Source: Rhizobiales bacterium 2SD
GTDB lineage: Bacteria; Pseudomonadota; Alphaproteobacteria; Rhizobiales; Beijerinckiaceae
DNA: 64,000 nt
Assembly: GCA_005502805.1 (NCBI GenBank)
Contig: SCMY01000008.1
Coordinates: 1 to 64,000, forward strand
Reading direction: 5' to 3'
Positions 38,640-56,157 of the stretch are shown piece after piece. Position numbers and translations under genes: made by a program. Position 1 is the stretch's first letter; every line of letters begins with the position of its first letter. Below the pieces are notes generated by a model. It did not search any database and had not been told where the DNA came from. It was given only the letters and a program-made list of their open reading frames with translations.

Positions 38640-39217
38640 AATCCGTCTGTGTCTTCTGCGGTTCGAGCCCGGGCCATGATCCCGTCCATGCCGAGGGCGC
38701 CCGCGCCATGGGCACCGCCATCGCCAAACGTGGCCTGACGCTGGTCTATGGCGGCGGCGCCGTCGGCCTGATGGGCATCGTCGCCAATGCTGCGCTCGAG
38801 GCCGGCGGCGAGGTCCATGGCGTGATCCCGCGGGCGCTGCGCGAGAAGGAGGTCGGCCACAACAAGCTGACCCGGCTCGAAGTGGTCGAGACCATGCACA
38901 TCCGCAAGGCGCGCATGGCCGAGCTCTCCGACGGCTTCATCGCCATGTCCGGCGGCATCGGCACCTTCGAGGAGATCTTCGAGATCTGGACCTGGAGCCA
39001 GCTCGGCATCCACGGCAAGCCGCTCGGTTTCCTCAACATCGACGGCTTCTACGACGCGCTCGCCGCCTTCCTCGACAACACGACCAAGGCCGGCTTCATG
39101 TGGCAGGCCCATCGCGACATGGCGATGATGGAGACCGACCCGGCCGCGCTGCTGGACAAGATGGAGGCCTACAAGCCTCAGACTCAGATCAAATGGGTGG
39201 AGAAGACGGAGGTTTGA
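38636..39217 (+). CDS. LOG family protein (TIGR00730)
   Basis: A 193-aa Rossmann-fold protein. The family signature appears as SGGIGTFEE (usual PGGxGTxxE, with Ser in place of Pro), and the N-terminus [10 protein letters not shown] is conserved. Family members hydrolyse nucleoside 5'-monophosphates, releasing the base, including cytokinin ribotides. The actual substrate here is unknown. It is coupled to the M20 peptidase and is the last gene before the GTA cluster. Confidence 0.9.
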
Positions 39218-39370: not shown

Positions 39371-39781
39371 ATGACCGACGAGAGTGACAAGAGCGCCCCG
39401 GCTCGGACGGCGGCGAAGCGCAAGCCTGCACGGAGCGGCGGCCGCAAGGCCGTGATCAGCAAGCTCTGGAAGGCGGCGCAGACGCAGCTCGAAGCGCATG
39501 AGGCGCATCTGGCCGAATTGCCGGCCGGCACCGCCGCGAGCGAAACCGACGCCAAGACGCTGGCGACGCTGGCTCGCACCGTGCGCGAGCTGGTCGCGCT
39601 GGATTCTGCCGCAGCGGGGGAGGGAGGAAAGGCCGAGGATGAGCCCAGCCCCGCCGAAGGATTGCGCCGGGTCGATGAGCTGCGACGAGAGCTGGCACGA
39701 CGCATGGAACGCCTTATCGCCGATCATACAGGCGAAGCTGTTCCTCAAGCTGCTGCCGGACCTGGCGCCAGAGCTGGTTAG
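39371..39781 (+). CDS. GTA gp1-like protein (small terminase position)
   Basis: A 136-aa, highly charged, Ala/Arg/Glu-rich helical protein with an N-terminal Lys/Arg-rich stretch (ARTAAKRKPARSGGRKA). It stands in the position of RcGTA gp1, the small terminase equivalent, which recognises DNA and guides the packaging motor. ATG 39371 follows the hairpin. Its 3' end overlaps the terminase gene by about 140 bases if the latter starts at 39639. The call comes from position and composition; sequence similarity is weak. Confidence 0.65.
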   Translation: MTDESDKSAPARTAAKRKPARSGGRKAVISKLWKAAQTQLEAHEAHLAELPAGTAASETDAKTLATLARTVRELVALDSAAAGEGGKAEDEPSPAEGLRRVDELRRELARRMERLIADHTGEAVPQAAAGPGARAG

Positions 39782-41018
39782 GCTCGCCGATCAGGAATGG
39801 ACCTACTACGGACGGCCTGACCAGAAATCCCGCCGCCTGCCGCCCTGGTGGACCTGGCTCGTTCTCGGTGGACGCGGTGCTGGCAAGACCAGGACCGGTG
39901 CCGAATGGGTCAAGGGCATGGCGCTGGGGCTCGCCCCGATCGCCAGCGAGCCCGTTGGCCGCATCGCCCTCGTCGGCGAAACGCAGGCGCAGGTCCGCGA
40001 CGTGATGATCGAGGGCGTCTCCGGTCTGCTCGCGATCCATCATCGCTGGGAGAAGCCGGTCTGGTCGCCGTCGCGGCGCCGGGTCGAATGGGGCAATGGC
40101 GCGATCGCGCAGGTCTTCACCGCCGAGGACCCGGAAGGTCTGCGCGGGCCGCAATTCGGGGCCGCCTGGTCCGACGAGCTGGCGAAATGGCCGAACCTTC
40201 AGGAGACCTGGGACATGCTGCAGCTCGGCCTGAGGCTCGGCGATAGGCCGAGGCAGGTGGTGACCACGACGCCGCGTCCGCTGCCATTGATCAAGCGGCT
40301 GCTCGACGACCCGCGCGTCGCAGTCAGCCGGGCGGCGACCCGCGCCAACCGCTTCAACCTGGCGCAGAGCTTCCTCGACAGCGTGCACCAGGCCTATGGC
40401 GGCACCCGGCTCGGCCGGCAGGAACTCGAAGGCGAGATCGTCGAGGAGAGCGCCGACGCCCTCTGGAGCCGGGCGCTGATCGAGGGATGCCGCGAGCGCG
40501 AGGCGCCGGCGCTGGCGCGGATCGTCGTGGCGATCGATCCGCCGGCGTCTTCGTCGAAGCGGGCGGATAGCTGTGGGCTGGTCGCGGCGGGGATCGATCG
40601 CGACGGCATCGGCCATGTCCTGGCTGATGCGACGCTCGCTGGCGCCAAGCCGCATGAATGGGCGGCTGCCGCCGTTGCGCTCTATCGCCGGCTGGAAGCG
40701 GATGCGCTGGTCGTCGAGGTCAACCAGGGCGGCGAGATGGCGGGAAGCGTCATCCGCGAGGTCGATCCGGGCGCGCCAGTGACGCCGGTCAGGGCCTCGC
40801 GCGGGAAATTCCTGCGGGCCGAGCCGGTGGCGGCGCTTTATGCGCAGGGCCGGGTGCGCCATGCCGGCGCCTTTCCCGCGCTTGAAGATGAGATGTGTGA
40901 CTTCGGCCCGACCGGCCTGAGCTCCGGCCGCTCGCCCGACCGGCTCGATGCGCTGGTCTGGGCGCTGACGCATCTGATGCTCGGGCCGAAGGGCCGGCCG
41001 CGGGTGAGGGGGCTGTAG
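39639..41018 (+). CDS. GTA large terminase (DNA packaging ATPase/nuclease, gp2)
   Basis: A 459-aa packaging motor. Walker A GGRGAGKT is at residues 77-84 of the form starting at ATG 39639; Walker B-type ALVGETQAQ and AAWSDELAKW follow. The RNase H-like nuclease half has VVAIDPPASS, LVVEVNQGG and a late DRLDALVWAL. GGGAGG upstream supports ATG 39639, but ATG 39675 is also possible. In GTAs this enzyme fills heads with random pieces of host chromosome by the headful mechanism. Confidence 0.92.
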   Translation: MSPAPPKDCAGSMSCDESWHDAWNALSPIIQAKLFLKLLPDLAPELVRLADQEWTYYGRPDQKSRRLPPWWTWLVLGGRGAGKTRTGAEWVKGMALGLAPIASEPVGRIALVGETQAQVRDVMIEGVSGLLAIHHRWEKPVWSPSRRRVEWGNGAIAQVFTAEDPEGLRGPQFGAAWSDELAKWPNLQETWDMLQLGLRLGDRPRQVVTTTPRPLPLIKRLLDDPRVAVSRAATRANRFNLAQSFLDSVHQAYGGTRLGRQELEGEIVEESADALWSRALIEGCREREAPALARIVVAIDPPASSSKRADSCGLVAAGIDRDGIGHVLADATLAGAKPHEWAAAAVALYRRLEADALVVEVNQGGEMAGSVIREVDPGAPVTPVRASRGKFLRAEPVAALYAQGRVRHAGAFPALEDEMCDFGPTGLSSGRSPDRLDALVWALTHLMLGPKGRPRVRGL

Positions 41019-41050
41019 CGCCCGACCATCGCAACAACAGCGAGAAATCC

Positions 41051-42223
41051 ATGCTCAATTTCCTTCGCAGCCTGCGCGGCCTTGCCGCGCCGGAACAGAA
41101 GCGCTCGCGCGTCGGGCCGCTGATCGCCCTTCACGAGGCCGGCCGCCCGGTCTGGACGCCGCGCGACTATGGCGCCCTGGCGCGCGAGGGCTATCAACGC
41201 AATCCGGTGGTACATCGCTGCGTTCGCCTGATCGCCGAGGCGGCGGCGCAGACCCAGTTGATCGCCAAGGTCGGCGGGCGCGAGATGCCGGAGCATCCGG
41301 CGCTGGCGCTGATCGAGCGGCCGAATCCGCGCCAGGGCGGCATCGCCTTTCGCGAGATGCTCTATGGCCACCTGCTCGTCGCCGGAAACGCCTATGTCGA
41401 GGCGGCGAGCATCGGCCGTGAGCCGCGCGAACTCTATTCGCTCCGGCCCGACCGGATGCGCGTCGTGCCCGGCCACGACGGCTGGCCGGAGGCCTATGAT
41501 TACACCGTCGGCGCCCAGACCATCCGCTTCCGACAGGACGAGGGCGCGCTGCCGCCGATCCTGCATCTGTCGCTGTTCCATCCCGTCGACGATCATTACG
41601 GCCTCTCGCCGGTCGAGGCGGCGGCCTGCTCGCTCGACGTCCACAACGCCGCCGGCGCCTGGCACAAGGCGCTGCTCGACAATGCGGCAAGGCCCTCCGG
41701 TGCCCTGGTTTATGACGGGCCGGAAGGCGGTACGCTGACCGAGGCGCAGTTCGAGCGGCTGAAGCAGGAGTTGGAGGACGGTTTCCAGGGCGCGCGCAAT
41801 GCCGGGCGCCCGCTGCTGCTTGAAGGCGGACTCGACTGGAAGCCGCTGTCATTGTCGCCGGCCGAGCTCGATTTCGTCGCGGCCAAGGGCGTCGCTGCGC
41901 GCGAGATCGCGCTCGCCTTCGGCGTGCCGCCGCTGCTGCTTGGGCTGCCCGGCGACAACACCCATGCCAATTTCGCCGAGGCCAACCGTGCCTTCTGGCG
42001 CCAGACGTTGATCCCGCTGGTCCGGCGCACGGCGCAGTCGCTGGCGCAATGGCTCGGCCCGGCCTTCGGCGATGCGCTCACCCTCGAGCCCGATCTCGAT
42101 GCGGTGGAGGCGCTGGCGGAGGAGCGGGAATCGCTTTGGCGGCGGGTCTCCGCCGCCGGCTTCCTCAACGAGGACGAGAAACGCGAGGCGGTCGGTTACG
42201 GCCGCCGGGAGGTGTCGTCATGA
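41051..42223 (+). CDS. GTA portal protein (HK97 family, gp3)
   Basis: A 390-aa HK97-type portal that forms the dodecameric gate at one capsid vertex and docks the terminase. Conserved segments are YQRNPVVHRCVRLIAEAAA, GNAYVEA and GVPPLLLGLPGDNTHANFAEANRAFW. The length and start (ATG 41051) are normal. The stop overlaps the next small gene by 4 bases. Confidence 0.93.
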   Translation: MLNFLRSLRGLAAPEQKRSRVGPLIALHEAGRPVWTPRDYGALAREGYQRNPVVHRCVRLIAEAAAQTQLIAKVGGREMPEHPALALIERPNPRQGGIAFREMLYGHLLVAGNAYVEAASIGREPRELYSLRPDRMRVVPGHDGWPEAYDYTVGAQTIRFRQDEGALPPILHLSLFHPVDDHYGLSPVEAAACSLDVHNAAGAWHKALLDNAARPSGALVYDGPEGGTLTEAQFERLKQELEDGFQGARNAGRPLLLEGGLDWKPLSLSPAELDFVAAKGVAAREIALAFGVPPLLLGLPGDNTHANFAEANRAFWRQTLIPLVRRTAQSLAQWLGPAFGDALTLEPDLDAVEALAEERESLWRRVSAAGFLNEDEKREAVGYGRREVSS

Positions 42224-42420
42224 GCCCGTTCGACGAAGCCGCGGCGGGGATCGTCTCACGCGGCGATCTCGGCCATCTCGCGCTGCTGCTCTGGGCCTTC
42301 TGCGCCTCGGGGCTCTCGCTGTTTTCCCTTCGTGAGCTGATCGCCGCCAACCGGCGCTTCGATGAGTTCGTACGCGAATTCGCCCGCTTCAACGCCCGCT
42401 ACGAGGGAGGGGATTCATGA
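42220..42420 (+). CDS. GTA ORFg3.5-like small membrane protein
   Basis: A 66-aa protein with one hydrophobic segment (ALLLWAFCASGLSLFSL, about residues 21-37) followed by a charged amphipathic helix (RFDEFVREFARFNARY). It sits between portal and prohead protease, where RcGTA has the small ORF g3.5. ATG 42220 overlaps the portal stop (ATGA) and its own stop overlaps the next ORF (ATGA at 42417). The function is unknown. Confidence 0.75.
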   Translation: MSPFDEAAAGIVSRGDLGHLALLLWAFCASGLSLFSLRELIAANRRFDEFVREFARFNARYEGGDS

Positions 42421-42587
42421 GCAAGTCCGGTGGCAAATCGCCGCCCAGGCCGGCTCCGGCAGCGGTCAGGTCGGGCGTGGCTGTGCCGCGCCCCGGCCGC
42501 CCGCCGCGCGAGGTGTTCGGCCGCTTCTTCGAGACGCTCGGGCAGCTCGACGCCAATGGTCGCGGCGGGCGGGGAGGAGCGCGATGA
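42417..42587 (+). CDS. 56-aa basic proline-rich protein in the GTA operon
   Basis: A short frame from ATG 42417 to TGA 42585-42587, 56 residues. The N-terminal half is basic and proline-rich (SKSGGKSPPRPAPA); the middle is REVFGRFFETLGQLDANGRG. It is linked on both sides by ATGA overlaps, with the small membrane protein and with the prohead protease start at 42584. That coupling is strong evidence that it is translated. No homologue is recognised. Confidence 0.65.
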   Translation: MSKSGGKSPPRPAPAAVRSGVAVPRPGRPPREVFGRFFETLGQLDANGRGGRGGAR

Positions 42588-43108
42588 GAACCGTTTCTCC
42601 CCGTTATCCCGCTCTGGCGCGGGAGGCCAAGTTCCTGGCGCAGCCGCTGGCCCGGATCGAGCCGGACGGCGCCTTCGAGGGCTATGCCAGCCTGTTCCGC
42701 ATCGCCGATCTCGGCAAGGACGTGGTCGAGCCCGGCGCCTTCCGCGACAGCCTCGCCCGCCGTGGCGCGAGCGGCATCAGGATGCTCTGGCAGCATGACC
42801 CGACACAGCCGATCGGCCGCTGGCTCGAATTGCGCGAGGATTCACGCGGGCTTTATGTCCGTGGACGGCTCTCGCTCGCCGTGGCGCGGGCCCGCGAGCT
42901 GCATGCGCTGATGCGCGACGGCGCCGTCGACGGGCTCTCGATCGGCTTCCGCTCGCAGCGCGCCCGTAGCGAGCCGCGCAGCGGGCTGCGCCGGCTGGAG
43001 AAGGTCGACCTCTGGGAGATCTCGCTCGTCACCTTCCCGATGCTGCCGCAGGCAAGGGTCAGCGCCGTCAAGGCGCTGCGCCCTCCCAGCCTTGCCGCCT
43101 TTGCCTGA
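42584..43108 (+). CDS. GTA prohead protease (HK97/S78 family, gp4)
   Basis: A 174-aa serine protease that removes the capsid protein's scaffolding arm during head maturation. The expected triad motifs are present: histidine in LWQHDP, serine in GLSIGF and glutamate in LWEISLVTFP. ATG 42584 (ATGA overlap) opens the family sequence. It is followed by the capsid gene after 34 bases with an AGGAG ribosome binding site. Confidence 0.93.
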   Translation: MRTVSPRYPALAREAKFLAQPLARIEPDGAFEGYASLFRIADLGKDVVEPGAFRDSLARRGASGIRMLWQHDPTQPIGRWLELREDSRGLYVRGRLSLAVARARELHALMRDGAVDGLSIGFRSQRARSEPRSGLRRLEKVDLWEISLVTFPMLPQARVSAVKALRPPSLAAFA

Positions 43109-43142
43109 ACCAACCTGAAGCCGCAGAACCACAGGAGAACCC

Positions 43143-44384
43143 ATGACTGCGCTGAACCAGGCTCCCGAGACCAAGGCGACCGGCGAGGCCGCCGCCATCT
43201 ATGACGATCTGCGCTATACGCTGGAGGCCTATCGCGCCACCAATGACGAGCGCCTGGCCGAGCTCGAAACCCGCATGGGCGGCGACGTGCTGACCGGCGA
43301 GAAGCTCGCCCGCCTCGACGACGCGCTCGACGAGACCCGCCGCCGGCTCGACCGGCTGAGCCTCGACCGCAGCCGCCCAGCTCTGGGCACGAGCGACGAG
43401 CGCGATCCGGCCGTGGCCGAGCACAAGGCCGCCTTCGCGTCCTACGTCCGCCATGGCGAGGCGACCGGATTGAAGCGGCTCGAAGCCAAGGCGCTCTCGG
43501 CCGGTTCCGGCCCGGATGGCGGCTATCTCGCGCCTTCGACAGTCGAAGGCGAGATCCTGCGCCGCCTGGCCGCGGTGTCGCCGATCCGCTCGATCGCGAC
43601 GGTGCGCACCATCTCCTCCGGCACCTACAAGAAGGCGTTCTCGACCACCGGACCGGCCTCCGGCTGGGTGGCCGAGACGGCGGCGCGGCCGCAGACCGGC
43701 ACGCCGACGCTGGCCGAGCTCTCCTTCCCGGCGATGGAGCTCTACGCCATGCCGGCGGCGACGCAGACCCTGCTCGACGACGCCATCGTCGACATCGACC
43801 AGTGGATCGCCGAGGAGGTCGAGAGTGCCTTCGCCGAGCAGGAGGGCGCGGCCTTCGTCAATGGTGACGGCGTCGACAAGCCCAAAGGCTTCCTGGCCTA
43901 TCCGACCGTCGCCGACGCCAGCTGGAGCTGGGGCAATATCGGCACGCTGAAGACCGGTGTCGCCGGCGCCTTCGCCGCCTCGAACCCGTCCGACATCCTG
44001 GTCGATCTCGTCTATGCGCTGAAGGCCGGCTACCGCCAGAACGCCAGCTTCGTGATGAACCGCAAGACGCAGGCCGCGGTGCGCAAGTTCAAGGACTCGA
44101 CGGGTCAGTATCTCTGGCAGCCGCCGGCCGCGGCGGGCGCACAGGCGACGCTGCTGGGCTTCCCTGTCGTCGAGGCCGAGGACATGCCGAACATCGCGAC
44201 GGACTCGGTCTCGATCGCTTTCGGCGACTTCCGCCGCGGCTATCTGGTCGTCGACCGGGCGGGCGTGCGCATCCTGCGCGATCCCTATTCCGCCAAGCCG
44301 CATGTGCTGTTCTATACGACCAAGCGCGTCGGCGGCGGCGTGCAGGACTTCGCCGCGATCAAGGGGCTGAAGTTCTCGGCCTGA
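43143..44384 (+). CDS. GTA major capsid protein (HK97 fold, gp5)
   Basis: A 413-aa HK97-fold capsid protein. The first about 100 residues are a charged coiled-coil delta domain (ERLAELETRMGGDVL, then LDETRRRLDRLSL) that acts as built-in scaffold and is removed by gp4. The mature shell part includes GGYLAPSTVEGEIL, the E-loop region and LLGFPVVEAEDMP. AGGAG precedes the ATG. It ends only 6 bases from the convergent stop of a trypsin-fold protease gene. Confidence 0.95.
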   Translation: MTALNQAPETKATGEAAAIYDDLRYTLEAYRATNDERLAELETRMGGDVLTGEKLARLDDALDETRRRLDRLSLDRSRPALGTSDERDPAVAEHKAAFASYVRHGEATGLKRLEAKALSAGSGPDGGYLAPSTVEGEILRRLAAVSPIRSIATVRTISSGTYKKAFSTTGPASGWVAETAARPQTGTPTLAELSFPAMELYAMPAATQTLLDDAIVDIDQWIAEEVESAFAEQEGAAFVNGDGVDKPKGFLAYPTVADASWSWGNIGTLKTGVAGAFAASNPSDILVDLVYALKAGYRQNASFVMNRKTQAAVRKFKDSTGQYLWQPPAAAGAQATLLGFPVVEAEDMPNIATDSVSIAFGDFRRGYLVVDRAGVRILRDPYSAKPHVLFYTTKRVGGGVQDFAAIKGLKFSA

Positions 44385-44390
44385 TCCGGA

Positions 44391-45266
44391 TCAGCGGCCG
44401 AACCACCAGCTGTAGCTTGCGTTCGGGCGTGCGCTCTCGCGCGCCTGACGCGGCTCGTCGCCATAGTTGAGCAGACGCTCGCTCGCCTCGGAAATCCAGG
44501 CGCGGTGGTCATTGATCGGGGTGATCGCGGTGAAGCCGCCGCAGATCAGCTTGACGCGCGAACTCAAGGGGCCACTCGACCAGGAGACGATCCCGACGAG
44601 ATCGCGCGATCCGGCTGGACCACGCAAAACCGGCCCGCCTGAATCGCCGCGGCAGGCCCCGGCGCCGAGGACCTCACCTCGGTTCTCGGTGTCGACCGCG
44701 ACCTTGACCGTGTTTGCCGTGGTGTAGTTGCCGGCGTTGATCAGGGTCACCTCGCGCAATGTGCGCGCGGTCTTCTTGTTGTGTTCGGATGCGAGGCCGA
44801 AGCCGGCCATGGTCACGGTTTCGCCCTGCCACAACCCGCTGCCGAGCGTCAGTGGCTGGATGTCGGCGGGTAGCGGCGCGGCGAGACGCAGCAGCGCGAG
44901 GTCCGCGCCCGGCTGGGTGCGTGGCGTCGTGCCGGGGACGAAAGTCGGGTGCGGCAGGACAGCCGCCACGGCATGAGTGCGGTTGCGGAAGCGCTTGTCG
45001 AGGCTGATCACGCGCACCGAACCGCCGGTCATCAGGCAATGCGCTGCGGTGAGCACGAGCTCGGAGGAGATCGCTGCGCCGGAGCAGAGTTCGCCGCGGC
45101 TGGTCTCGACTCGCAAGGTCGAGGCCCGCGCGCCATCGACCGCGCGCGATTGCACGCCGCCGACGACGGCCTGGGCCGGCCCGGTCATCTGTAGGCCGGC
45201 GCAAAAAGCCGCCGCGATGGTTACGGCGCGCTTCGAAGAGGTCATGGTCGAGGCCATCATTGCCAT
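44391..45266 (-). CDS. secreted trypsin-fold (S1A) serine protease, copy 1
   Basis: A 291-aa chymotrypsin-fold protease with a signal peptide. The mature N-terminus VVGG follows directly after the AQA cleavage site, so no zymogen propeptide is visible. The triad is His in LTAAHC, Asp in ADLALLRL and Ser in GDSGGP. Disulfide cysteines are present (ELCSG/AAHC, GACRG, LICGG). By alignment to the serine, the residue at chymotrypsin position 189 is Gly and 216 is Ser, so it should not prefer basic residues. It lies antisense inside the GTA operon. Confidence 0.9.
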   Translation of the reverse strand: MAMMASTMTSSKRAVTIAAAFCAGLQMTGPAQAVVGGVQSRAVDGARASTLRVETSRGELCSGAAISSELVLTAAHCLMTGGSVRVISLDKRFRNRTHAVAAVLPHPTFVPGTTPRTQPGADLALLRLAAPLPADIQPLTLGSGLWQGETVTMAGFGLASEHNKKTARTLREVTLINAGNYTTANTVKVAVDTENRGEVLGAGACRGDSGGPVLRGPAGSRDLVGIVSWSSGPLSSRVKLICGGFTAITPINDHRAWISEASERLLNYGDEPRQARESARPNASYSWWFGR

Positions 45267-45323
45267 GGAGCCAGTCTATGGTTTGCTGCGGCGCAGTCCA
45301 GTGGTCTTCGCGCCTGCGGAGAA

Positions 45324-46097
45324 TCAGGGGGCTGCGATCCAGCTGGCGCCCTCGCCCCAGCCGGACAAGGTGCGGTCGATCCAGCCGCGTTGGGGCGCGA
45401 CCAGCACGCCCTGGCTGAGCAGGCCGCATTGCTTGCCGGACGGTCCGGTCGACCAACTGGAGACCGCTACGACGCCATCCGATTCGGCGACGATGGGCCC
45501 GCCGGAATCGCCCTGGCAGGCGCCGGCGCCCAGCCGCTTGCCGCCGGTCGCCGGATCGGACGCCCAGAGCAGAATCTTGCCGGGGCCGTAAGGCTCGACT
45601 GTGGCAAGCGAGGCAGAGCGATAGGTGCCGGTCGTCTTTGCATCGCCTTCGCGGGCGACGCCATACCCTGACAACGTCACCGGCGATCCGGCGCGCGGCA
45701 GGCCGCCGTCGACCAAGGTCGCGGTCGAGAAACGCGCTGGTAGAGGCGCCGCGAGCCTGACCAGCGCGAGGTCGATCGAGCGCTGCCGGTTTGTGACGGA
45801 TTTGGCGTTGAACTCGGGGTGAAGCGCGATCGTCGCCGGCTCGACCAGAACCGGCTCGCCGCCCTCGCGCCAGTGGACACGCAGGTCGACGCGGGAATCG
45901 GCGCAGTGAGCCGCGGTGAGGATCACGCGGCGCGACAGGACGATGCCGGTGCAGACGCCGCCGCGCGCATTGAGGACCATCACGGTCGCGCTGGCGATTG
46001 GGCCGCCTTCGCGCCCGCCGACCACAGCCGAGGCGGGCCAGGGGGCGGCAAATACCGCTGCCAAGGCCACCAGTCCAATCGCCGTTCTGACACGCAT
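45324..46097 (-). CDS. secreted trypsin-fold (S1A) serine protease, copy 2
   Basis: A 257-aa paralogue of the neighbouring protease. The signal peptide (IGLVALAAVFAAPWPASA) is followed directly by mature VVGG. The triad is His in LTAAHC, Asp in SIDLALVRL and Ser in GDSGGP; position 189 equivalent is Gly. GGAGG 7 bases before ATG 46097 fixes the start. It is upstream of copy 1 on the minus strand with a 57-base gap, so the two probably form an operon read against the GTA genes. It is divergent from the GTA gp6 gene, 75 bases away. Confidence 0.9.
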   Translation of the reverse strand: MRVRTAIGLVALAAVFAAPWPASAVVGGREGGPIASATVMVLNARGGVCTGIVLSRRVILTAAHCADSRVDLRVHWREGGEPVLVEPATIALHPEFNAKSVTNRQRSIDLALVRLAAPLPARFSTATLVDGGLPRAGSPVTLSGYGVAREGDAKTTGTYRSASLATVEPYGPGKILLWASDPATGGKRLGAGACQGDSGGPIVAESDGVVAVSSWSTGPSGKQCGLLSQGVLVAPQRGWIDRTLSGWGEGASWIAAP

Positions 46098-46172
46098 CGA
46101 GCCGCCTCCGCTGTCGGGCCGGGCTCGATAGCGCATCGGCGGTGCCGTTCAAACCGGAAAAGAGGAGAGGCC

Positions 46173-46742
46173 ATGACGCCGATCGCCCTGACGCCGCCGG
46201 CCATCGAGCCGGTCTCGCTGTCGGAAGCCAAAGATTTCCTGCGGATCATCGTCGATGATGAAGACGAATTGCTCGGCACCTTGATCACAGCGGCGCGGCT
46301 GATGATCGAGGCCGCCTCCGGGCGCCTGCTGATCGAGCAGGGCTGGCGAATCGTTCTCGATGTCTGGCCGCAGGGCGGTGAGATTCGCTTGCCGCTCTCG
46401 CCACTGCGCAGCCTTACGGCCGCCCGCGTCCATCCCGCTGCGGGCGCTGCCGAGATCGTTGCTTCGGCCTCGCTTGCTCTGGCCGAGGGCTCTGATCCAC
46501 CGCTGATCAAGGTTGCAGGTCCTGTTCCGGCGCCCGGCCGCGCTTACGCTGCGATCGAGATCGATCTCGTCGCCGGCTTCGGCGCGACGCGTGATGCGGT
46601 GCCTGCGCCGCTGCGCCAGGCGGTGCTCAGGTTGGCCTGCCGCTGGTTCGAGCATCGCGGCGACGTGGTCAGCCGCGACGCGGTGCGACTGCCGGCCGAG
46701 ATCGCGGCCTTCGTCGCTCCCTTTCGCCGGGTGAGGCTGTGA
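46173..46742 (+). CDS. GTA head-tail connector (gp6)
   Basis: A 189-aa adaptor of the HK97 gp6 / SPP1 gp15 connector type, which binds beneath the portal. The N-terminus PVSLSEAKDFLRIIVDDEDELLGTLITAAR is typical of the family (phage QLRxxxR-like connectors). AGAGGAGAGG directly upstream of ATG 46173 is a strong ribosome binding site, fitting restart of translation after the antisense protease block. The stop overlaps the next ATG (TGATG). Confidence 0.88.
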   Translation: MTPIALTPPAIEPVSLSEAKDFLRIIVDDEDELLGTLITAARLMIEAASGRLLIEQGWRIVLDVWPQGGEIRLPLSPLRSLTAARVHPAAGAAEIVASASLALAEGSDPPLIKVAGPVPAPGRAYAAIEIDLVAGFGATRDAVPAPLRQAVLRLACRWFEHRGDVVSRDAVRLPAEIAAFVAPFRRVRL

Positions 46743-47089
46743 TGCCTCGCGAGACATCGAAAGGCCGTCGTCCGGTCGGTGCGCTGCGTCGCCGTCTGCT
46801 GCTGGAAGCGCCTGTCGAGACGCCGGATGGCGCCGGCGGGCAGCTCACCGGCTTCGAGACGGTCGCTGCCGTGTGGGCTCAGGTCGAGTGGCTTTCGGGT
46901 AATGAGCGCTGGCGCGGCGAGCGGCCCGAGCAGGCTGCGAGCTACCGTGTCACCCTGCGCTGGCGCGCCGATCTCGATGCCGGCCAGCGCCTGCGCGATG
47001 GTGACCAGGTCTTCGACATCAAGGCGGTCGGCGATCCCGATGACGGCCGCCGGCGCCTCGTCTGCCTGGTCGAGGAGGTCAGCCGATGA
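46742..47089 (+). CDS. GTA head-tail adaptor / head closure protein (gp7)
   Basis: A 115-aa phage head-tail joining protein. The family pattern is LRRRLLLEAPVETPDGAGG near the start, then ETVAAVWAQVEWLSGNE and RWRADLDAGQRLRDGDQVFDI. The start ATG 46742 shares its A with the gp6 stop (TGATG). It closes the portal channel and prepares it for tail attachment. Confidence 0.88.
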   Translation: MPRETSKGRRPVGALRRRLLLEAPVETPDGAGGQLTGFETVAAVWAQVEWLSGNERWRGERPEQAASYRVTLRWRADLDAGQRLRDGDQVFDIKAVGDPDDGRRRLVCLVEEVSR

Positions 47090-47496
47090 GCGACGCCATC
47101 CTGCCGCTGCGGCGCGTCATCCAAGCGCATCTCTCCGGCGATGCCGGGCTGACGGCGTTGATCGGCGCCGGCCGCATCTATGACGAGCCGCCGCGCGCCC
47201 AGAACGGACTCTACGTCGTCCATGGCGAGGTTATGGCCGAGGACTGGTCGACCGGCAGCGATCGCGGCTGTGAGCAGAAGCTCTCCCTCGTCGTCTGGGC
47301 TGGCGAGAGCGCCTCCTCGCGCAAAGCGCTCGAGGCAGCCGCCCGGATCGCCGCGAGTCTGGAAGGAGCTGTCCTCGCGCCGGACGGACACCGGTTGGTC
47401 AATCTCAGCTGGCTGTCCTCGAAGCTGGCGCGCGATCCCAAAACCCATCTGCCGACGGTGACGCTGACCTTCCGGGCCGTCACCGAGACGCTCTGA
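47086..47496 (+). CDS. GTA tail terminator / DUF3168 protein (gp8)
   Basis: A 136-aa DUF3168 protein, the tail-completion family. Its N-terminal helix ILPLRRVIQAHLSGDAGLTALIG and the GRIYDEPP motif are characteristic. ATGA overlap with gp7. It likely forms the ring that caps the tail tube at the head side. Confidence 0.9.
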   Translation: MSDAILPLRRVIQAHLSGDAGLTALIGAGRIYDEPPRAQNGLYVVHGEVMAEDWSTGSDRGCEQKLSLVVWAGESASSRKALEAAARIAASLEGAVLAPDGHRLVNLSWLSSKLARDPKTHLPTVTLTFRAVTETL

Positions 47497-47517
47497 CCCG
47501 CACGAAAGGACCGCTCA

Positions 47518-47928
47518 ATGCCTGCCCAGAAAGGCAAGGACCTCTTGCTCAAGGCTGCCGATGCCGGCGGCACCTTCATAACCGTTGCGGGCCTGCGCGC
47601 CCGCCAGATCGCCTTCAACGCCGAGGCGGTCGACGTCACCCACGCCGAGTCGGCCGGGCGCTGGCGCGAACTGCTGGCCGGCGCCGGAATGCGCCGCGCC
47701 AGCATCAGCGGCGCGGGCATCTTCAAGGACGAGGCATCCGACGCGCTGGTGCGCCAGATCTTCTTCGACGGCACGATCCGCGACTGGCAGGTGATCGTGC
47801 CGGATTTCGGCGTGATCACCGGGCCGTTTCAGCTCTCGACGCTCGAATATCGCGGCGACCATGCCGCCGAGGTCACTTTCGAGCTCTCGCTGGAATCGGC
47901 GGGCCAGCTCTCCTTCACGCTCGCCTGA
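47518..47928 (+). CDS. GTA major tail tube protein (gp9, TP901-1 family)
   Basis: A 136-aa tail tube subunit. The N-terminal AQKGKDLLLKAADAGGTFITVAGLRAR and the VDVTHAESAGRWRELLAGAG segment are typical of TP901-1-like tube proteins. AGGAC lies upstream of ATG 47518. It forms the short hollow tail through which DNA passes. Confidence 0.92.
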   Translation: MPAQKGKDLLLKAADAGGTFITVAGLRARQIAFNAEAVDVTHAESAGRWRELLAGAGMRRASISGAGIFKDEASDALVRQIFFDGTIRDWQVIVPDFGVITGPFQLSTLEYRGDHAAEVTFELSLESAGQLSFTLA

Positions 47929-47939
47929 GGGGAGTCCGC

Positions 47940-48293
47940 ATGGTCAATCGTTACAGGGGCGAGGTCGCCCTGATGGTCGAGGGGCGGGCGCTGCCGATGC
48001 GGCTCACCCTCGGCGCGCTTGCCGAGCTCGAGAGCGCGTTCTCGGTCGAGAACCTGCCGGCGCTGGGCGAGCGTTTCGCCGCGGGCCGGCTCTCGGCACG
48101 CGACATCGCCAGGATCCTGGCTGCCGGGTTGCGTGGAGGTGGCAGCATTCTGACCGCGGACGAGATCGCAGCGCTGCCTTTCGATGGTGGCCTCAACGGC
48201 GCCATCGCCGCCGCGATCGCGCTGCTCGACGCGACCTTCGCTCCGGCGGGGCAGGGAACGGAAGTCCGCCCTCCGCTGCCGCCGGCGGCCTAG
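47940..48293 (+). CDS. GTA gp10 protein (tail assembly chaperone position)
   Basis: A 117-aa protein matching the GTA gp10 family: RYRGEVALMVEGRALPMRLTLGALAELE, then SARDIARILAAGLRGGG. It has the genomic position of the first tail-assembly chaperone (lambda gpG-like) between tube and tape measure. Its TAG stop is followed by a frame (-1 relative to it) encoding the second chaperone, for which no upstream start codon exists. Confidence 0.85.
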   Translation: MVNRYRGEVALMVEGRALPMRLTLGALAELESAFSVENLPALGERFAAGRLSARDIARILAAGLRGGGSILTADEIAALPFDGGLNGAIAAAIALLDATFAPAGQGTEVRPPLPPAA

Positions 48294-48331
48294 GTGCTCC
48301 GGCGGCAATTCCTTTTCCCTGGCGCGAGGTG

Positions 48332-48535
48332 ATGGCCTTCGGGCTCGGGCGTTTGCGCTGGACACCGGACGCCTTCTGGGCCGCCAGCCCGCGCGAGATC
48401 CTCGCCGCGATCGAGGCCTATCGGCCGCCATCGGCGCTCGACCCCCCAACGCGTCCGATGCTCGATGCGTTGATGCGAGCCCATCCGGACCCGATTTCCT
48501 GTGACGATGATTGGAAAGGCCGCATCGATGGCTGA
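48332..48535 (+). CDS. GTA phage tail assembly chaperone (gp10.1)
   Basis: A 67-aa protein if read from ATG 48332: MAFGLGRLRWTPDAFWAASP and a C-terminal DDDWKGRIDG. The conserved FPWREV that normally opens this family is encoded just upstream (48314-48331) in the same frame, but no ATG, GTG or TTG precedes it back into gp10. So either ATG 48332 or the adjacent GTG 48329 is used and the N-terminus is short, or the product arises by -1 frameshift from gp10. It overlaps the tape measure start (ATG 48528). Confidence 0.72.
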   Translation: MAFGLGRLRWTPDAFWAASPREILAAIEAYRPPSALDPPTRPMLDALMRAHPDPISCDDDWKGRIDG

Positions 48536-49118
48536 CGAAGGTGATTCTCTTTCATTCGATTTCGGCGGCCTGCGCACGCTGAACACGCTGACCCAGAGCT
48601 TGAGCAAGGCGGCGCAGTCCTTCGGCAAGTCGATCACCTCCGCTTTCGCCAGCGGCATCGTCGAAGGCAAGCGCTTCGAGGACGTGCTGCGCAGCATCGG
48701 CACCTCGCTCACGCAAACCTTGCTGAAGTCGGCACTGAAGCCATTGCAAGGTGTGATTTCGAGTTGGCTTGGCTCCGGCGTCAACAGTCTGGCCGGACTC
48801 TTTTCCGGCGGGATCGGCGGCGGTGGCGGCCCGCCCGTGACTTTCTTCGCCGATGGCGGCGTCGTCGCCACGCCGTCTTATTTCGCCATGGGGCGCGGGC
48901 TCGGAGTGATGGGCGAACGCGGCGCAGAGGCGATCATGCCTCTCTCGCGCGGCCCTGATGGCAAGCTCGGGGTGCGAGCGGCCGGTGGCAGCGAGCGGCG
49001 CCCCGTCAGCGTCACCGTTCAGGTTTCGACGCCCGATGCCGATAGCTTCCGCCGCTCGGAGGCGCAGGTCTCGGCCGCCATCGCCCGCGCCGTGGCCCGC
49101 GGCAACCGGGCTCTTTGA
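48528..49118 (+). CDS. GTA tail tape measure protein (gp11)
   Basis: A 196-aa short tape measure protein. It has a helical N-terminal half (TLTQSLSKAAQSFGKSITSAFASG, broken here only for reference), a hydrophobic glycine-rich centre (NSLAGLFSGGIGGGGG) and the conserved ADGGVV, then MGERGAEAIMPLSRGPDGKLGV, of phage tape-measure C-termini. ATG 48528 has GGAAAGG upstream and overlaps the previous stop. The small size predicts a short tail, in line with GTAs. Confidence 0.87.
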   Translation: MADEGDSLSFDFGGLRTLNTLTQSLSKAAQSFGKSITSAFASGIVEGKRFEDVLRSIGTSLTQTLLKSALKPLQGVISSWLGSGVNSLAGLFSGGIGGGGGPPVTFFADGGVVATPSYFAMGRGLGVMGERGAEAIMPLSRGPDGKLGVRAAGGSERRPVSVTVQVSTPDADSFRRSEAQVSAAIARAVARGNRAL

Positions 49119-49146
49119 CCCTCAGCACCATGGCAGGAGAGGCGGC

Positions 49147-49788
49147 ATGAGCGGCTTCCATGAGGTGCGCTTCCCGACGGGAATCGCCCGCGGCGCCCGC
49201 GGCGGGCCGGAGAGACTGACCCAGGTGGTGACCCTGGCTTCGGGCCGGGAGGTTCGCAACAGCCGCTGGGCCCATTCACGGCGACGCTACGATGCCGGCT
49301 TCGGCATCCGCACGCTCGATGCGCTCGGCGAGGTCGTCGCCTTCTTCGAGGAGCGGCGCGGCCGGCTCTACGGTTTCCGCTGGCGCGACCAGCTCGACTG
49401 GAAGAGCTGTGCGCCCTCGGCGACGCCCGCGGCGAGCGATCAGCAGATCGGAGTGGGCGATGGCGCGACCCGGGCCTTCCAGCTCTGCAAACTTTATGGC
49501 GGCCTGCATGCGCCCTATGTCCGCCGCATCAGCAAGCCGGTTGCCGGTACGGTGCTGATCGCGCTCGACGGCGTGGTGCAGGCACAGCCGACGGCTGTCT
49601 CCTGCGATCACGCCACGGGGCAGGTCACCTTCGCCTCCGGCCATGCCCCGTCTGTGGGCGCCGTCGTCAGCGCCGGCTTTGCCTTCGACGTACCCGTGCG
49701 CTTCGACGCCGACATGATCGAGGTCGATCTGTCGGCTTTCGAGGCGGGCGACATCCCCAAGATCCCGATCGTCGAGATCGCCGATTAA
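49147..49788 (+). CDS. GTA DUF2460 distal tail protein (gp12)
   Basis: A 213-aa DUF2460 protein: FHEVRFPTGIARGARGGPER at the start, RRRYDAGFGIRTLDALGEVVAFFE in the middle and a C-terminal VRFDADMIEVDLS. In GTAs this is a distal tail or baseplate component at the end of the tube. AGAGG precedes ATG 49147. Confidence 0.92.
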   Translation: MSGFHEVRFPTGIARGARGGPERLTQVVTLASGREVRNSRWAHSRRRYDAGFGIRTLDALGEVVAFFEERRGRLYGFRWRDQLDWKSCAPSATPAASDQQIGVGDGATRAFQLCKLYGGLHAPYVRRISKPVAGTVLIALDGVVQAQPTAVSCDHATGQVTFASGHAPSVGAVVSAGFAFDVPVRFDADMIEVDLSAFEAGDIPKIPIVEIAD

Positions 49789-49798
49789 AGGCTTTGCC

Positions 49799-50689
49799 AT
49801 GCGGACATTATCCCCCGAACTCGCCGCGCATGTCGCGGGCGAGGCGACGACGCTGTGCCGCTGCTGGAGTCTGACCCGCCGGGATGGCGCGGTGTTGGGC
49901 TTCACCGATCATGACCGCGATCTTGGTTTCGACAGCATTCTGTTCCGCGCGAATGCCGGCCTCGAAGCCGCCGAATCCAGTTCCGAACTCGGCTTCGCAA
50001 CTAGCGGCGGCGAGGTGCTCGGAGCCCTGGCCGCGAGCGGGCTGAGCGAGGCGGACCTGTCACGCGGCCTATTCGACGATGCTCGTATCTCGCTCTGGCT
50101 GGTCAATTGGGCCGATCCCAGCCAGCGCACCTTGCTGGAAGCCGGCTTCGTCGGGGAGGTGAAGCGCAGCGACAGCCATTTCACCGCCGAGATGCGGGGG
50201 CTTGGCAAGGCCTTCGACGAAGAGCGTGGCCGGCTCTACACGGCGAGCTGCTCCGCCGATCTGGGAGATGCCCGCTGCGGTGTCACTCCGGGGGCCTCAT
50301 CGGCGACCGTTGCGGCGACCGATGGACGGCTGTCGATCACGGCCCACGCGCTGTCTGGCCATGCCGATGGACATTTCAGCGGCGGCCGGCTCGTCTTCAC
50401 CGCGGGCGACAATACCGGCTTCGCCACCGAGATTCGCAGCCACCGCACGGATGGAGGAACCGCCGCGCTGCAGCTCTGGCAGGCGACGCCGCGGCCGATC
50501 GCCGTCGGCGACGCTTTCACGGCCCAGGCCGGTTGTGACAAGCGCTTTGCCACCTGCAGGGACAAGTTCGGCAACGGCGTCAACTTTCGCGGCTTCCCCC
50601 ATCTTCCCGGCAACGACTTCATCATCGGCGGCACCGGGGCCGGTAGTCCCGGCGCAGGGCCGTTCGATGGCGGGAGCCTGTTCCGATGA
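49799..50689 (+). CDS. GTA DUF2163 / BR0599-family tail hub protein (gp13)
   Basis: A 296-aa protein of the DUF2163 family with the C-terminal BR0599 region. The N-terminus CRCWSLTRRDGAVLGFTDHDRDL is diagnostic. Cysteines (YTASCSADLGDARCGV and QAGCDKRFATCRDKFGN) fit the iron-sulfur-like centre proposed for this family's hub proteins. It overlaps the gp14 start by 4 bases. Confidence 0.92.
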   Translation: MRTLSPELAAHVAGEATTLCRCWSLTRRDGAVLGFTDHDRDLGFDSILFRANAGLEAAESSSELGFATSGGEVLGALAASGLSEADLSRGLFDDARISLWLVNWADPSQRTLLEAGFVGEVKRSDSHFTAEMRGLGKAFDEERGRLYTASCSADLGDARCGVTPGASSATVAATDGRLSITAHALSGHADGHFSGGRLVFTAGDNTGFATEIRSHRTDGGTAALQLWQATPRPIAVGDAFTAQAGCDKRFATCRDKFGNGVNFRGFPHLPGNDFIIGGTGAGSPGAGPFDGGSLFR

Positions 50690-51132
50690 CGGGCCGCGAT
50701 ACGACACGCGAGCGGATCCTCGCAGCCGCGCGTACCTGGCTTGGCACGCCCTATCATCATCAGGCGTCATTGCGTGGGGTGGGGTGTGATTGCCTTGGCC
50801 TGGTGCGCGGCATCTGGCGCGATCTCTACGGGAGCGAGCCCGAGCCGACGCCCCCCTATTCGCCCTATTGGGCACAGCAGGGAGGGGGCGAGACGCTGGC
50901 GTGGGCCGCAGAGCGGCATCTGCATCCGACCGCCGTCGAAGCCGTCTTGCCGGGCGATGTCCTGCTCTTCCGTTGGCGGATGCACCTGCCGGCGGCTCAC
51001 TGCGCCATCCTCATCGAACCCGATCGCATCCTGCACGCCCATGATGGCGCTGCGGTCGGCGAGGTCGCCTTCACCAGCTGGTGGCGCCGCCATCTCAGCC
51101 ATGCCTTCGCCTTTCCGGAGCTCGACGCCTGA
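50686..51132 (+). CDS. GTA NlpC/P60 cell wall peptidase (gp14)
   Basis: A 148-aa NlpC/P60 peptidase. The catalytic cysteine lies in GVGCDCLGLVRG and the histidine in PAAHCAILIE, with a further HAHD. It probably digests recipient peptidoglycan during DNA delivery. ATGA overlap with gp13 and TGATG overlap with gp15. Confidence 0.92.
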   Translation: MTGRDTTRERILAAARTWLGTPYHHQASLRGVGCDCLGLVRGIWRDLYGSEPEPTPPYSPYWAQQGGGETLAWAAERHLHPTAVEAVLPGDVLLFRWRMHLPAAHCAILIEPDRILHAHDGAAVGEVAFTSWWRRHLSHAFAFPELDA

Positions 51133-54100
51133 TGGCCACGCTTGTTCTGCAGGTTGCCGGTTCGGTTCTCGGTGCTGCCGTTGGCGGGCCGTTCGGCGCA
51201 ATCCTGGGCCGCTCGCTGGGCGCGCTCGCGGGCGCCAGGCTAGACCAGGGGCTGTTCGGCAGCGGTGGCGGCACGCGCATCGTCGAGGGGCCTCGCCTCA
51301 AGGAGATCGACGGCATCGCCTCGACCGAAGGGGCGCCGATCCCGCGCGTCTATGGCAGAGTCAGGCTCGGGGGCCAGCTGATCTGGGCGACGCGCTTCGA
51401 GGAGGAGGTGACGACCACCGTCACCCGGACCAAAGCCGGTGGCAAGGGCGGGCAGAAGGCGCAGAAGACCTACGAGACGACCTACAGCTACTACGCCAAC
51501 CTCGCAGTCGCGATCTGCGAGGGACCGATCGCCTTCGTTCGCCGCATCTGGGCCGATGGGCGCGAGGTCGATTTCAACGCCGTGACCCTTCGGATTCATC
51601 GCGGTTTCGAGAACCAGGAGCCCGATCCGCTGATCGCTGCCAAGGAGGCCGGTGCCGCCCCGGCCTATCGCGGCGCGGCCTATGTCGTGTTCGAGCGCTT
51701 TCCGCTCGCTGCCTACGGCAATCGCGTGCCGCAGTTCTCCTTCGAGATGGTGCGTGTGGTGCCGGGCCTGGGCGAGATGATCCGTGCCGTGACGCTGATC
51801 CCCGGCGCGAGCGAGTTCGTCTATCATCCGACCTTGGTCAGCCAGGAGCCCGAGGCCGGCGTCACCATCGCCGAGAACCGCCACCAGCTGCACAGCGCAA
51901 GCGATGTCGATGGCGCCGTCGGCCATCTGCTGGCGCTCTGCCCGAATCTGCGGCGCATCTCGCTCGTCGTCAGCTGGTTCGGCGACGATCTGCGGGCCGG
52001 GCACTGCACCATCGCGCCGCGCGTCGAGATCGCCGAGAAGAATACGCCCGATATGCTTTGGTCCGTCGCCGGCCTCGACCGCGCAGGCACGCGCCTGGTC
52101 AGCCAGTCGAGCGGCCGGCCCGCCTATGGCGGTACGCCGTCGGACGGGAGCGTGATTGCACTGATCCGGCGCTTGCGCCTCGTCTACGGGATCGAGGTGG
52201 TACTCTACCCCTTCGTGATGATGGATGTACCAACCGACAATGCGCTGATCGACCCTCATACCGGCAACGCCTCCCAGCCGCCCTATCCCTGGCGCGGCCG
52301 TATCACGTGCTCACCGGCTCCGGGCCAATCCGGCTCGCCGGACGGCACGTCGGTGGCGGGGGAGCAGATCGAGAGTTTTCTCGGCACCGCGGCGGCCGCC
52401 GATTTCTCGCTCGACGGCGAAGAAGTCGTCTGTGCCGTGCCAGGCGAGTGGAGCTTCCGGCGGGCGGTGCTTCACGCGGCGATGCTAGCCAAGGCCGCCG
52501 GCGGCGTCGAAGGGTTCATCATCGGTTCCGAGCTGGTCGGGTTGACCCGCGTGCGCGCGGCTCCGGGCTCCTACCCGATGGTCGACGGGCTGGTCGCGCT
52601 TGCGGCTGAGGTCCGCGCCATCCTCCCGGCTCCGACAAAGCTGGTCTATGCCGCCGACTGGACCGAATACGGCGCCCATGCGCGCGATGGCGGGCACGAA
52701 CTCCGCTTCCCACTCGACCCGCTTTGGGCGAGTCCGCATATCGACGCGATCGGTATCGATTATTACGCACCGCTCTCCGACTGGCGCGACACGCCGGATC
52801 ATGCCGATCTCGCTATCGCTCGCGGCTCCGCCGACGTCGATTATCTGCGAAGCGGCCTGACCTCCGGCGAGGGCTATGACTGGCACTATGCCGATCTCGC
52901 CGGCCGCCAGGCCCAGATGCGCCAGCCGATCACGGATGCGGCTTTCGGCAAGCCTTGGGCGTTTCGGCAAAAGGATTTGCCGAACTGGTGGTTGAACGAG
53001 CATGTCGAACGGTTGGGCGGCGCCGAGATCGGAGCGACCGGCTGGTCGCCAGGCTCGAAGCCGATCTGGCTGACCGAGATCGGCCTGCCAGCGGTGGACA
53101 AGGGTGGCAATTCACCGAACGTCTTTCCCGATCCGAAATCGATCGATGGCGGCTATCCCCATTTCTCGACGAGGGCGCGCGATGATCTCGTTCAGGCTCG
53201 CGGCCTGGAGGCGATCCTCTCAGGCTTCGATCCCGCGCTCCCGGGCTTCGAGCCGCAGCGCAATCCGATCTCGCCTTCGCTCGGTTTCCGCATGGTCGAC
53301 CCGGCCAACATCTTCGTCTGGACCTGGGACGCCAGGCCGTTTCCGGCGTTCCCCGATCTGATCTCGGTCTGGACCGACGGAGCGAACTATCAGACTGGTC
53401 ATTGGATCAACGGCCGCCTCGAAGGCGCGACGCTCGACCGGCTGGTACGGGCGATCCTGGCCGACTACGGACTGCCGACCCCGGACGAAATCGCCATCGA
53501 CGGTTTCGTCGACGGCTATGTCCTCGATCGGCCGATTTCGGCGCGGCAGGCAATGGAGCCGCTCTCGCAAACCTTCGGCTTCGACGCCGTCATGTCTTCC
53601 GGAAGACTCACGTTTCGCGGGCGCGCCGCCACCGTCGCGCAGATGCTCTCCGCGAATGATCTGGTGCTCGACCGCGACGGCCAGCCCTATGAGTTGCGCC
53701 GGGCAGAGGAAAGCGAGCTGCCGCGCGAGCTGCGGCTGATCCATGTCGATGGGAACAACGACTACCGCCAGGTCGCTGCCCGCTCGCGGCGCCTTGCCGG
53801 GGCGGCACGGCGTGAGAACGCTCTCGAACTGCCGGTGGTCACGCGCAGAGCCGAAGGCCAGCGCCTTGCCGATCAGCGGCTTCAGGAGATCTGGGCGGGC
53901 CGTGAGACGCTTGAGCTCGAATTGTCGCCGCGTTGCATAGCCCTGGAGGCCGGGGATGTTGTCTCGCTCGATGTGGCCGGCCAACTGCGCCTGTTCCGAC
54001 TGACGCGCATCAGCGACGGTCAGACGCGACGAGCCAGCGCCCGCTCGGTCGAGCCGGCCATCTATCGCGGCGCGACCCTGGGCGTGGACGAAGAGCCTCG

Positions 54101-55113: not shown

Positions 55114-55440
55114 ATGGCGATGATGCTGCTCGACCCCAACGTCGCGATTCTCGCACTCGTGATCGCCACCGCTTCGCCGGTGGAGACGGTCGATGCGCCG
55201 CAGCCGATCTCGTGCCTGTCCGCCGAAGCCACGCGCGAAGCCGTGTCGGACGGCAAGGTCATGCAGCCCGCCGCCGCGTCGCGCCATGCCCGCGAGGCGG
55301 CGCCCGGCGAAGTCCTGCGGATCAGGCTCTGCCGCCAGGGCGACGAGTTCGTCTACGTGGTGACGACGATGAAGCGCGATGGCCGCGTCGCCCGGGTCAC
55401 GCTCGACGGCGCCTCGGGCAAGGTGGCGGATATCCGCTAG
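55114..55440 (+). CDS. small PepSY-like periplasmic protein (FeuN-like position)
   Basis: A 108-aa protein with a short hydrophobic N-terminal segment (AILALVIATASP) and a C-terminal PepSY-like half (VLRIRLCRQGDEFVYVV, then RVTLDGASGKVADIR). It directly precedes a FeuP/FeuQ-type two-component system. In Sinorhizobium meliloti the small periplasmic FeuN upstream of feuPQ restrains FeuQ. This protein could do the same; the equivalence is inferred from position and domain. Confidence 0.72.
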   Translation: MAMMLLDPNVAILALVIATASPVETVDAPQPISCLSAEATREAVSDGKVMQPAAASRHAREAAPGEVLRIRLCRQGDEFVYVVTTMKRDGRVARVTLDGASGKVADIR

Positions 55441-55487
55441 TTCAGCTATTCCCCGTTCCTTGATCCGCCAATCGGAGAAAAGCCGCC

Positions 55488-56150: not shown

Positions 56151-56157
56151 GGCCGTC

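Follow-up and report, generated by a model that had tools for sequence, protein, structure and literature searches.

Two antisense trypsin-like protease genes inside the gene transfer agent cluster of a Rhizobiales bacterium and its relatives

Gene transfer agents (GTAs) are DNA-transferring particles encoded, in the soil and plant bacteria considered here, by a phage-derived cluster. In the standard order of GTA genes, the capsid gene (gp5) is directly followed by the connector gene gp6. In the window studied here, the whole stretch of 64,000 nucleotides from Rhizobiales bacterium 2SD (contig SCMY01000008.1, positions 1 to 64,000), two protease genes (PrA and PrB) lie between them on the opposite strand. 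Why does a domesticated phage cluster harbour two apparently exported proteases, and do they serve the particle or the cell that encodes it?

The protease pair and its setting

The features are as follows, in window coordinates:

38636-39217, plus strand: left flank, a Lysine_decarbox/SLOG-type protein, kept in GTA-less relatives
39498-55061, plus strand: RcGTA-like structural cluster with terminase (start approximate), portal, S78 protease, capsid, and gp6 to gp15-like genes
43143-44384, plus strand: GTA major capsid gene (gp5), HK97-type, by family search; convergent with PrA
44391-45266, minus strand: PrA, a putative exported S1A serine protease of 291 aa (ORF, Pfam and sequence; export judged from sequence); alternative in-frame start ATG at 45245; predicted signal-peptidase cleavage before V34 (codon 45165-45167)
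45324-46097, minus strand: PrB, a putative exported S1A serine protease of 257 aa from the ATG at 46097 (export likewise judged); predicted signal-peptidase cleavage before V25 (codon 46023-46025)
46128-46155, minus strand: promoter-like element of PrB, GGTTTGAA (46148-46155) and GCGCTAT (46128-46134), inside the gap between PrB and gp6
46173-46742, plus strand: GTA head-tail connector gene (gp6), by family search; divergent from PrB
55114-56150, plus strand: right flank, a small protein (55114-55440) and an OmpR-type response regulator (55488-56150), kept in GTA-less relatives

Terminase, portal, S78 protease, HK97 capsid, connector and tail genes surround the pair in RcGTA order, those from terminase to gp8 assigned by family search and gp9-gp15 by position and between-locus homology only. 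This content and order are shared with RcGTA-like GTAs (alphaproteobacterial type I), and the GTA is known here from its genes alone. The capsid gene and PrA converge with 6 bp between their stop codons, and the gap from PrB to gp6 is 75 bp with the PrB start at 46097. A perfect 12-bp palindrome, TGATCCGGATCA (window 44382-44393), holds both stop codons. The genome also encodes a second, distant HK97-type capsid (G000:C24:380895-381893, 39% identity), which probably belongs to a prophage. Adjoining the GTA on the right (window 55114-57534), the small protein and response regulator are accompanied by a kinase whose best NCBIfam match is PhoQ, below its cut-off; we take this trio to resemble feuN-feuP-feuQ of Sinorhizobium.

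The original prediction of two S1A proteases, with signal peptides and full triads, antisense between capsid and gp6, stands in each of these parts. Both minus-strand frames are open and intact, and both match the Pfam Trypsin family (PF00089; E 7.1e-27 and 95.1 bits for PrA, E 7.5e-23 and 81.9 bits for PrB, against a cut-off of 20.6), trypsin domains being the only ones matched by the Pfam search. The two proteins are paralogues with 37% identity over 235 aligned positions, each with the complete triad and disulfide cysteines, and sequence and alignments, judged without a predictor, support their signal peptides. The predicted PrB start at 46097 also holds and is preferred over the longest-ORF start at 46136, because in most same-genus homologues the ATG sits 22-27 codons before VVGG. 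AlphaFold returned moderate models (mean pLDDT 71.8 for PrA and 69.8 for PrB, from alignments of 9 and 10 rows), and Foldseek, run on the PrB model, gave elastase (E 3.0e-13) and trypsins as best matches, pointing to a trypsin fold. Trypsins, hepsin and elastase are the closest solved structures of the pair. The G+C content of both genes resembles that of their neighbours, and PrB, the gene adjoining gp6, is the more conserved member.

Among the homologues aligned, His57, Asp102 and Ser195 are complete in 147 of 147 full-length class B (PrB) proteins and 75 of 75 full-length class A (PrA) proteins, with fragments (1/148 and 4/79) set aside and Bradyrhizobium-like homologues included in class B. 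The disulfide cysteines are as invariant as the triad in these full-length proteins. At the expected cleavage site, Ala occupies position -1 in 143/146 PrB-class and 76/77 PrA-class rows, and Ile or Val follows at +1 in 129/146 and 77/77. In the alignment, this expected AxA-type site directly abuts the trypsin Ile16 position and leaves no separate propeptide, so export alone may activate the enzyme. Trypsin owes its cleavage after Arg or Lys to Asp189. Residue 189 is Gly in 136, Ser in 7, Ala in 4 and a gap in 1 of the 148 class B proteins, and Gly in 69, Ser in 8 and a gap in 2 of the 79 class A proteins. As it is never Asp, trypsin specificity was rejected and cleavage after Arg or Lys is not expected. 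PrA and PrB therefore resemble the secreted bacterial S1A trypsins in fold, His-Asp-Ser triad, C42-C58 and C191-C220 cysteines and Ile/Val16-type N-terminus, but differ in residue 189, in the signal-peptidase site expected directly before residue 16, and in their location inside a GTA.

Upstream of PrB, most of the genus has a GGTTYRA-like sequence and GCGCTAT. GCGCTAT lies 31-37 nt before the PrB ATG and does not vary among the 19 upstream regions of Bosea type that were aligned, which come from loci with and without a GTA and include two GTA-less lineages; L008 and L010 (the latter outside the 19-row alignment) have GCGGTAT instead. Within the last 60 nt before the start, GCGCTAT was counted in 26 of 81 PrB loci with a GTA and 5 of 17 without one, all of the Bosea group, and before PrA in 0 of 47 loci, against shuffle expectations of 0.4, 0.0 and 0.1, respectively. 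We infer that the element is the promoter of PrB, and its conservation makes independent expression of PrB from the 75-bp gap plausible. Against a promoter of its own, the element is found in only part of the genus, is missing from the divergent same-genus loci L029, L030, L075 and L208 (the last from genome G031), and showed no promoter in a sigma-70 consensus scan. Three terminator-like sites returned by the scan all lie inside PrA.

Distribution and inheritance of the pair

To choose junction loci, we hand-picked roughly one or two from each genus or family among the capsid matches listed, favouring near-full capsids, and scored them with profiles. Two duplicates (L001, L002) were dropped throughout, as was L027 (the left part of G003, without the junction) from the junction count. 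The pair is neither confined to one strain nor degraded elsewhere: every one of the 29 same-genus loci has it in antisense; these include L025, where PrA is frameshifted, and L008, where gp6 runs off the contig. Among other genera of the same family (f1), PrB is found in 30 of 32 loci, accompanied by PrA in 11, and PrA never occurs without it; in the two loci that lack PrB (L056 and L062), a bare gap of 80-85 bp separates gp5 from gp6. The Phreatobacter-like family f20 carries the pair in 6 of 6 loci. All 65 protease-bearing junctions have the antisense orientation.

By contrast, RcGTA-like GTAs of other families had a protease at this junction in 0 of 52 sampled loci, a sample that does not stand for the whole order, since some Xanthobacteraceae and Rhodopseudomonas loci do carry one. 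This agrees with the prediction that gp5 and gp6 are neighbours elsewhere: their gap is 17-1213 bp in 50 of the 51 loci with gp6, with an apparent overlap in L032, and in the remaining locus (L088) gp6 was not found in the stretch. A PrB scan of the genome collection (best 80 of 318 relatives) placed gp6 beside PrB in named loci outside f1, from Ancylobacter (L164), Xanthobacter (L182) and Rhodopseudomonas (L167 and L187). The same was seen in named Microvirga, Methylobacterium, Enterovirga and Phreatobacter loci, and named Bosea loci have this arrangement too; the genus of the window is referred to here as Bosea-like. Bradyrhizobium homologues are 35-38% identical, and GTA genes are absent from their stretches.

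Protein distances agree with a shared history of pair and cluster. Over 95 loci, PrB distances correlate with capsid distances (r 0.84) as capsid distances do with those of gp6 (0.78), and over 63 loci the correlation of PrA with capsid is 0.90. This fits vertical inheritance inside the cluster, and judged from these comparisons the arrangement is old and vertically inherited within the family. Calling the pair "inserted" is therefore apt relative to other families, but not in the sense of anything new. A one-strain insertion or degraded cargo was rejected on the grounds of distribution, intact triads and purifying selection (below).

Origin from known phages also found no support: PrB had no match at E 1e-5 among 50,697 phage records (a search made with PrB only), and PrA has a weak match to one phage protease family (phrog_9683, E 5e-5). 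When 14 larger gp5-gp6 gaps of other families and the 2 empty f1 junctions were inspected by eye, frame by frame, no divergent trypsin was evident, and the frames were mostly repeat-like or low-complexity.

Several other observations concern this part of the cluster. Two other-family gp5-gp6 gaps (L091:1394-2159 and L113:1216-1704) hold small sense-strand genes, by eye a HicA/HicB-looking pair and a GIY-YIG-looking protein, and the gp5-gp6 junction may be a general insertion spot. PrA of G009 (L025:4334-5139) and gp6 of G029 (L004:6023-6588) are each split by a frameshift where near relatives are intact, and are either sequencing errors or young pseudogenes. In G003 and G017, inserts of ~60 kb and ~23 kb, respectively, interrupt the GTA capsid gene at nearly matching codons (~314-326), and G017 also lacks most genes left of the insert. 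One junction of each insert has a gene for a large serine recombinase with Resolvase, Recombinase and Zn-ribbon domains (L211:343-2034, plus strand; L210:6497-8230, minus strand), and no direct repeat longer than 8 bp (G003) or 7 bp (G017) was found at the inserts. The GTA capsid gene may thus be an attachment site for serine-recombinase elements.

Persistence of the pair without the GTA

The pair is present in 36 of 37 same-genus genomes. Seven of the 37 have no GTA-type capsid, six of them without any match (G001, G008, G013, G020, G031 and G033) and one, G030, with a 35% match only. Six of these seven keep the pair, G030 being its sole absence. In five of them (G001, G008, G013, G020 and G033), 13 GTA queries found no match in 18-kb stretches around the pair, which is still antisense beside the right flank; the left flank is also found in all of these except G020, which has the right flank only. 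After GTA loss, PrB becomes the divergent neighbour of the regulator group at 55114-57534. In the sixth genome (G031), the pair is intact and flanked by pieces of terminase, gp6 and gp15 that have kept their order, the fossil of a cluster that decayed around it.

The same is seen in other f1 genera, where 16 of the 33 PrB-positive, capsid-less genomes were fetched. In 11 of the 16, PrB lies beside the same right flank with no GTA gene, as in Methylobacterium platani and M. variabile (L135 and L139); three are not beside the flank (L216, L225 and L226) and two are contig-edge loci with GTA genes (L227 and L230). The reverse case, a GTA without protease, is found in two genera (g29 and g159) totalling nine genomes, and the bare junctions were seen in two of these, L056 and L062. 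On PrB trees, which have many weak branches, at least 10 changes of GTA state are needed (147 rows, with starred branches forcing 6), or at least 12 in a second tree (133 rows, with 30 of 163, Bradyrhizobium-like and similar, left out; starred branches force 4). Independent GTA loss in four nodulating Rhizobiales lineages has also been raised as a possibility, according to the accessible text of PMC7363004.

Across 149 f1 genomes, in lists compiled by hand, 80 have both PrB and the GTA, 9 only the GTA, 33 only PrB and 27 neither. The GTA was scored as present in 89 genomes, 85 with long GTA-type capsid matches and four with shorter or broken ones (G453, G397, G333 and G390). The 33 with PrB only include two whose PrB matches are weak (G366 and G367) and at least four in which the capsid is split or GTA genes lie at the edge of a contig (G351, G358, G365 and G403). 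PrB and the GTA co-occur more often than expected (Fisher p 1.6e-6, a statistic that ignores kinship), which leaves room for a functional tie between them. We read this association as linkage by descent and perhaps more, some of the PrB-only genomes being incomplete assemblies.

Is the pair still under selection where the GTA has gone? By a purpose-written NG86 script, mean dN/dS in the GTA-less clade G001/G008/G020/G033 is 0.156 for PrA and 0.137 for PrB. Same-genus GTA-bearing groups, one of which includes the G031 remnant, gave 0.066, 0.066, 0.104, 0.173 and 0.230 for PrA and 0.074-0.156 for PrB, and in other genera the values for two GTA-less pairs were 0.250 and 0.128 for PrA and 0.196 and 0.258 for PrB. 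The proteases stay constrained after GTA loss, PrA perhaps a little less tightly, as 0.156 exceeds most GTA-bearing groups and GTA-less pairs elsewhere reach 0.25-0.26. Such purifying selection also means that the frames are not there by chance. Capsid means of 0.063-0.112 in GTA-bearing groups suggest that the capsid, where present, looks functional.

Particle or cell?

A gene that lies between phage genes adjacent in relatives, carries its own promoter and terminator, benefits the host and is dispensable for the phage-like element is known as a moron, or lysogenic conversion gene. We consider it probable that PrB and PrA are cargo of this kind, an exported protease pair with its own promoter that works independently of the particle and is selected for its benefit to the cell. 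This possibility was part of the original prediction, and it has fared well, as the pair survives in place after deletion of the GTA and is under purifying selection there. The GTA and the protease each occur alone in some genomes, which speaks for cargo rather than a function dedicated to the GTA, and since the pair is kept intact in strains in which the rest of the cluster is deleted, it probably serves the cell rather than the particle. The 27 f1 genomes with neither GTA-type capsid nor PrB, and G030 without both, count against this and suggest that the protease is dispensable in some lineages. Like phage morons, the pair is an opposite-strand addition between genes adjacent in relatives, with a promoter-like element and an apparent host benefit. 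Unlike them, it has an old, vertically inherited place in an element that is domesticated and does not transmit itself, and it survives the loss of that element.

Were the pair to work as such cargo, it would be transcribed from its own promoter, against the GTA genes. The signal peptide would cover Ile/Val16 and keep the enzyme inert in the cytosol, until signal peptidase freed this residue, so that crossing the inner membrane would itself activate the enzyme with no separate propeptide involved. Once in the periplasm or beyond the cell, and mainly while the GTA is off, the protease would cleave proteins or peptides after residues that are small or hydrophobic.

The alternative that the proteases are kept as a GTA accessory, aiding particle release, receptor exposure or DNA uptake, would account for the long co-inheritance with capsid and for the positive association of PrB and GTA in f1. 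It would also have a parallel in Caulobacter, where GTA-linked lysis requires LypA and LypC to be active as peptidases, according to the accessible part of PMC13236601. However, survival of the pair where the GTA has been deleted, as in five genomes of the genus and in other genera, together with the nine g29 and g159 genomes that keep the GTA without it, weighs against this, so that the role in release raised by the original prediction is disfavoured and we think a GTA accessory unlikely. LypA and LypC also lyse cells when overexpressed even without the core GTA cluster, and although their CARD-NLR-like system (LypABC) has trypsin-like peptidase domains tied to a GTA, both are described in the accessible text as multidomain (CARD-like, with ATPase or endonuclease) and required for GTA-mediated lysis (PMC13236601), whereas PrA and PrB matched trypsin domains only. 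Membership of the pair in a CARD-NLR or LypABC system was rejected, as Pfam found no CARD-like, ATPase or NLR domain and PADLOC matches were weak. A broader role in defence against phages or as a lysis effector, of the CARD-NLR or Lmu type, could draw on these PADLOC matches over the trypsin domain (RT-Protease, LmuA and Avs1b; best E 6.2e-6), but they are partial as well as weak, Pfam matches trypsin domains only and the proteins look exported, making such a role very improbable.

It is also conceivable that the layout serves mutual exclusion, with transcription of the pair running into the capsid gene and starting beside the gp6 ribosome-binding region, so that protease-on and GTA-on states exclude each other and GTA read-through silences the proteases. 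The antisense orientation at every protease-bearing junction, the 6-bp convergent gap between stop codons and the promoter-like element beside the gp6 start would all suit such control. Yet the pair persists where no GTA genes are left to regulate (as does the element in two GTA-less lineages), and other junctions have wider or variable spacing; we regard antisense control as distinctly unlikely to be the reason for the arrangement. A neutral hitchhiker or recent selfish insertion without function might be suggested by the other extra sequence in the gp5-gp6 gap of some other families. This is close to refuted by mean dN/dS values of 0.066-0.258 in all groups tested and triads invariant across many genera.

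In the literature searched, which included the accessible parts of PMC9836097, PMC9765227, PMC11409702, PMC7363004, PMC11841831, PMC9662315, PMC9638019, PMC3338782 and PMC10783043 and had most subscription papers outside it, none of the papers listed was seen to place a trypsin-like protease among the structural genes of a GTA, and we found no earlier description of such a pair there.

Beneficial cargo, the reading we prefer, bears on the long persistence of domesticated phage clusters such as GTAs. In this case, one of the genes within the GTA cluster appears to have a separable selective value of its own, and it repeatedly outlives the cluster. Presence of cluster genes, or purifying selection on one of them, need therefore not always indicate selection for gene transfer, as an embedded gene may be separately selected. 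The finding also yields a family of apparently exported proteases that may be activated by export, and strain pairs with and without the GTA, both keeping the protease pair, in which effects of the two can be separated. A speculative extension, which we think rather unlikely, is that PrB both anchors and gates the GTA. With PrB useful to the cell and placed centrally in the GTA, a single deletion of the whole cluster would carry a cost, leaving separate losses on each side as the only cost-free route, and the antisense, self-promoted layout would create alternative protease and GTA states. If this were true, a gene that benefits the host would stabilise and gate a domesticated virus.
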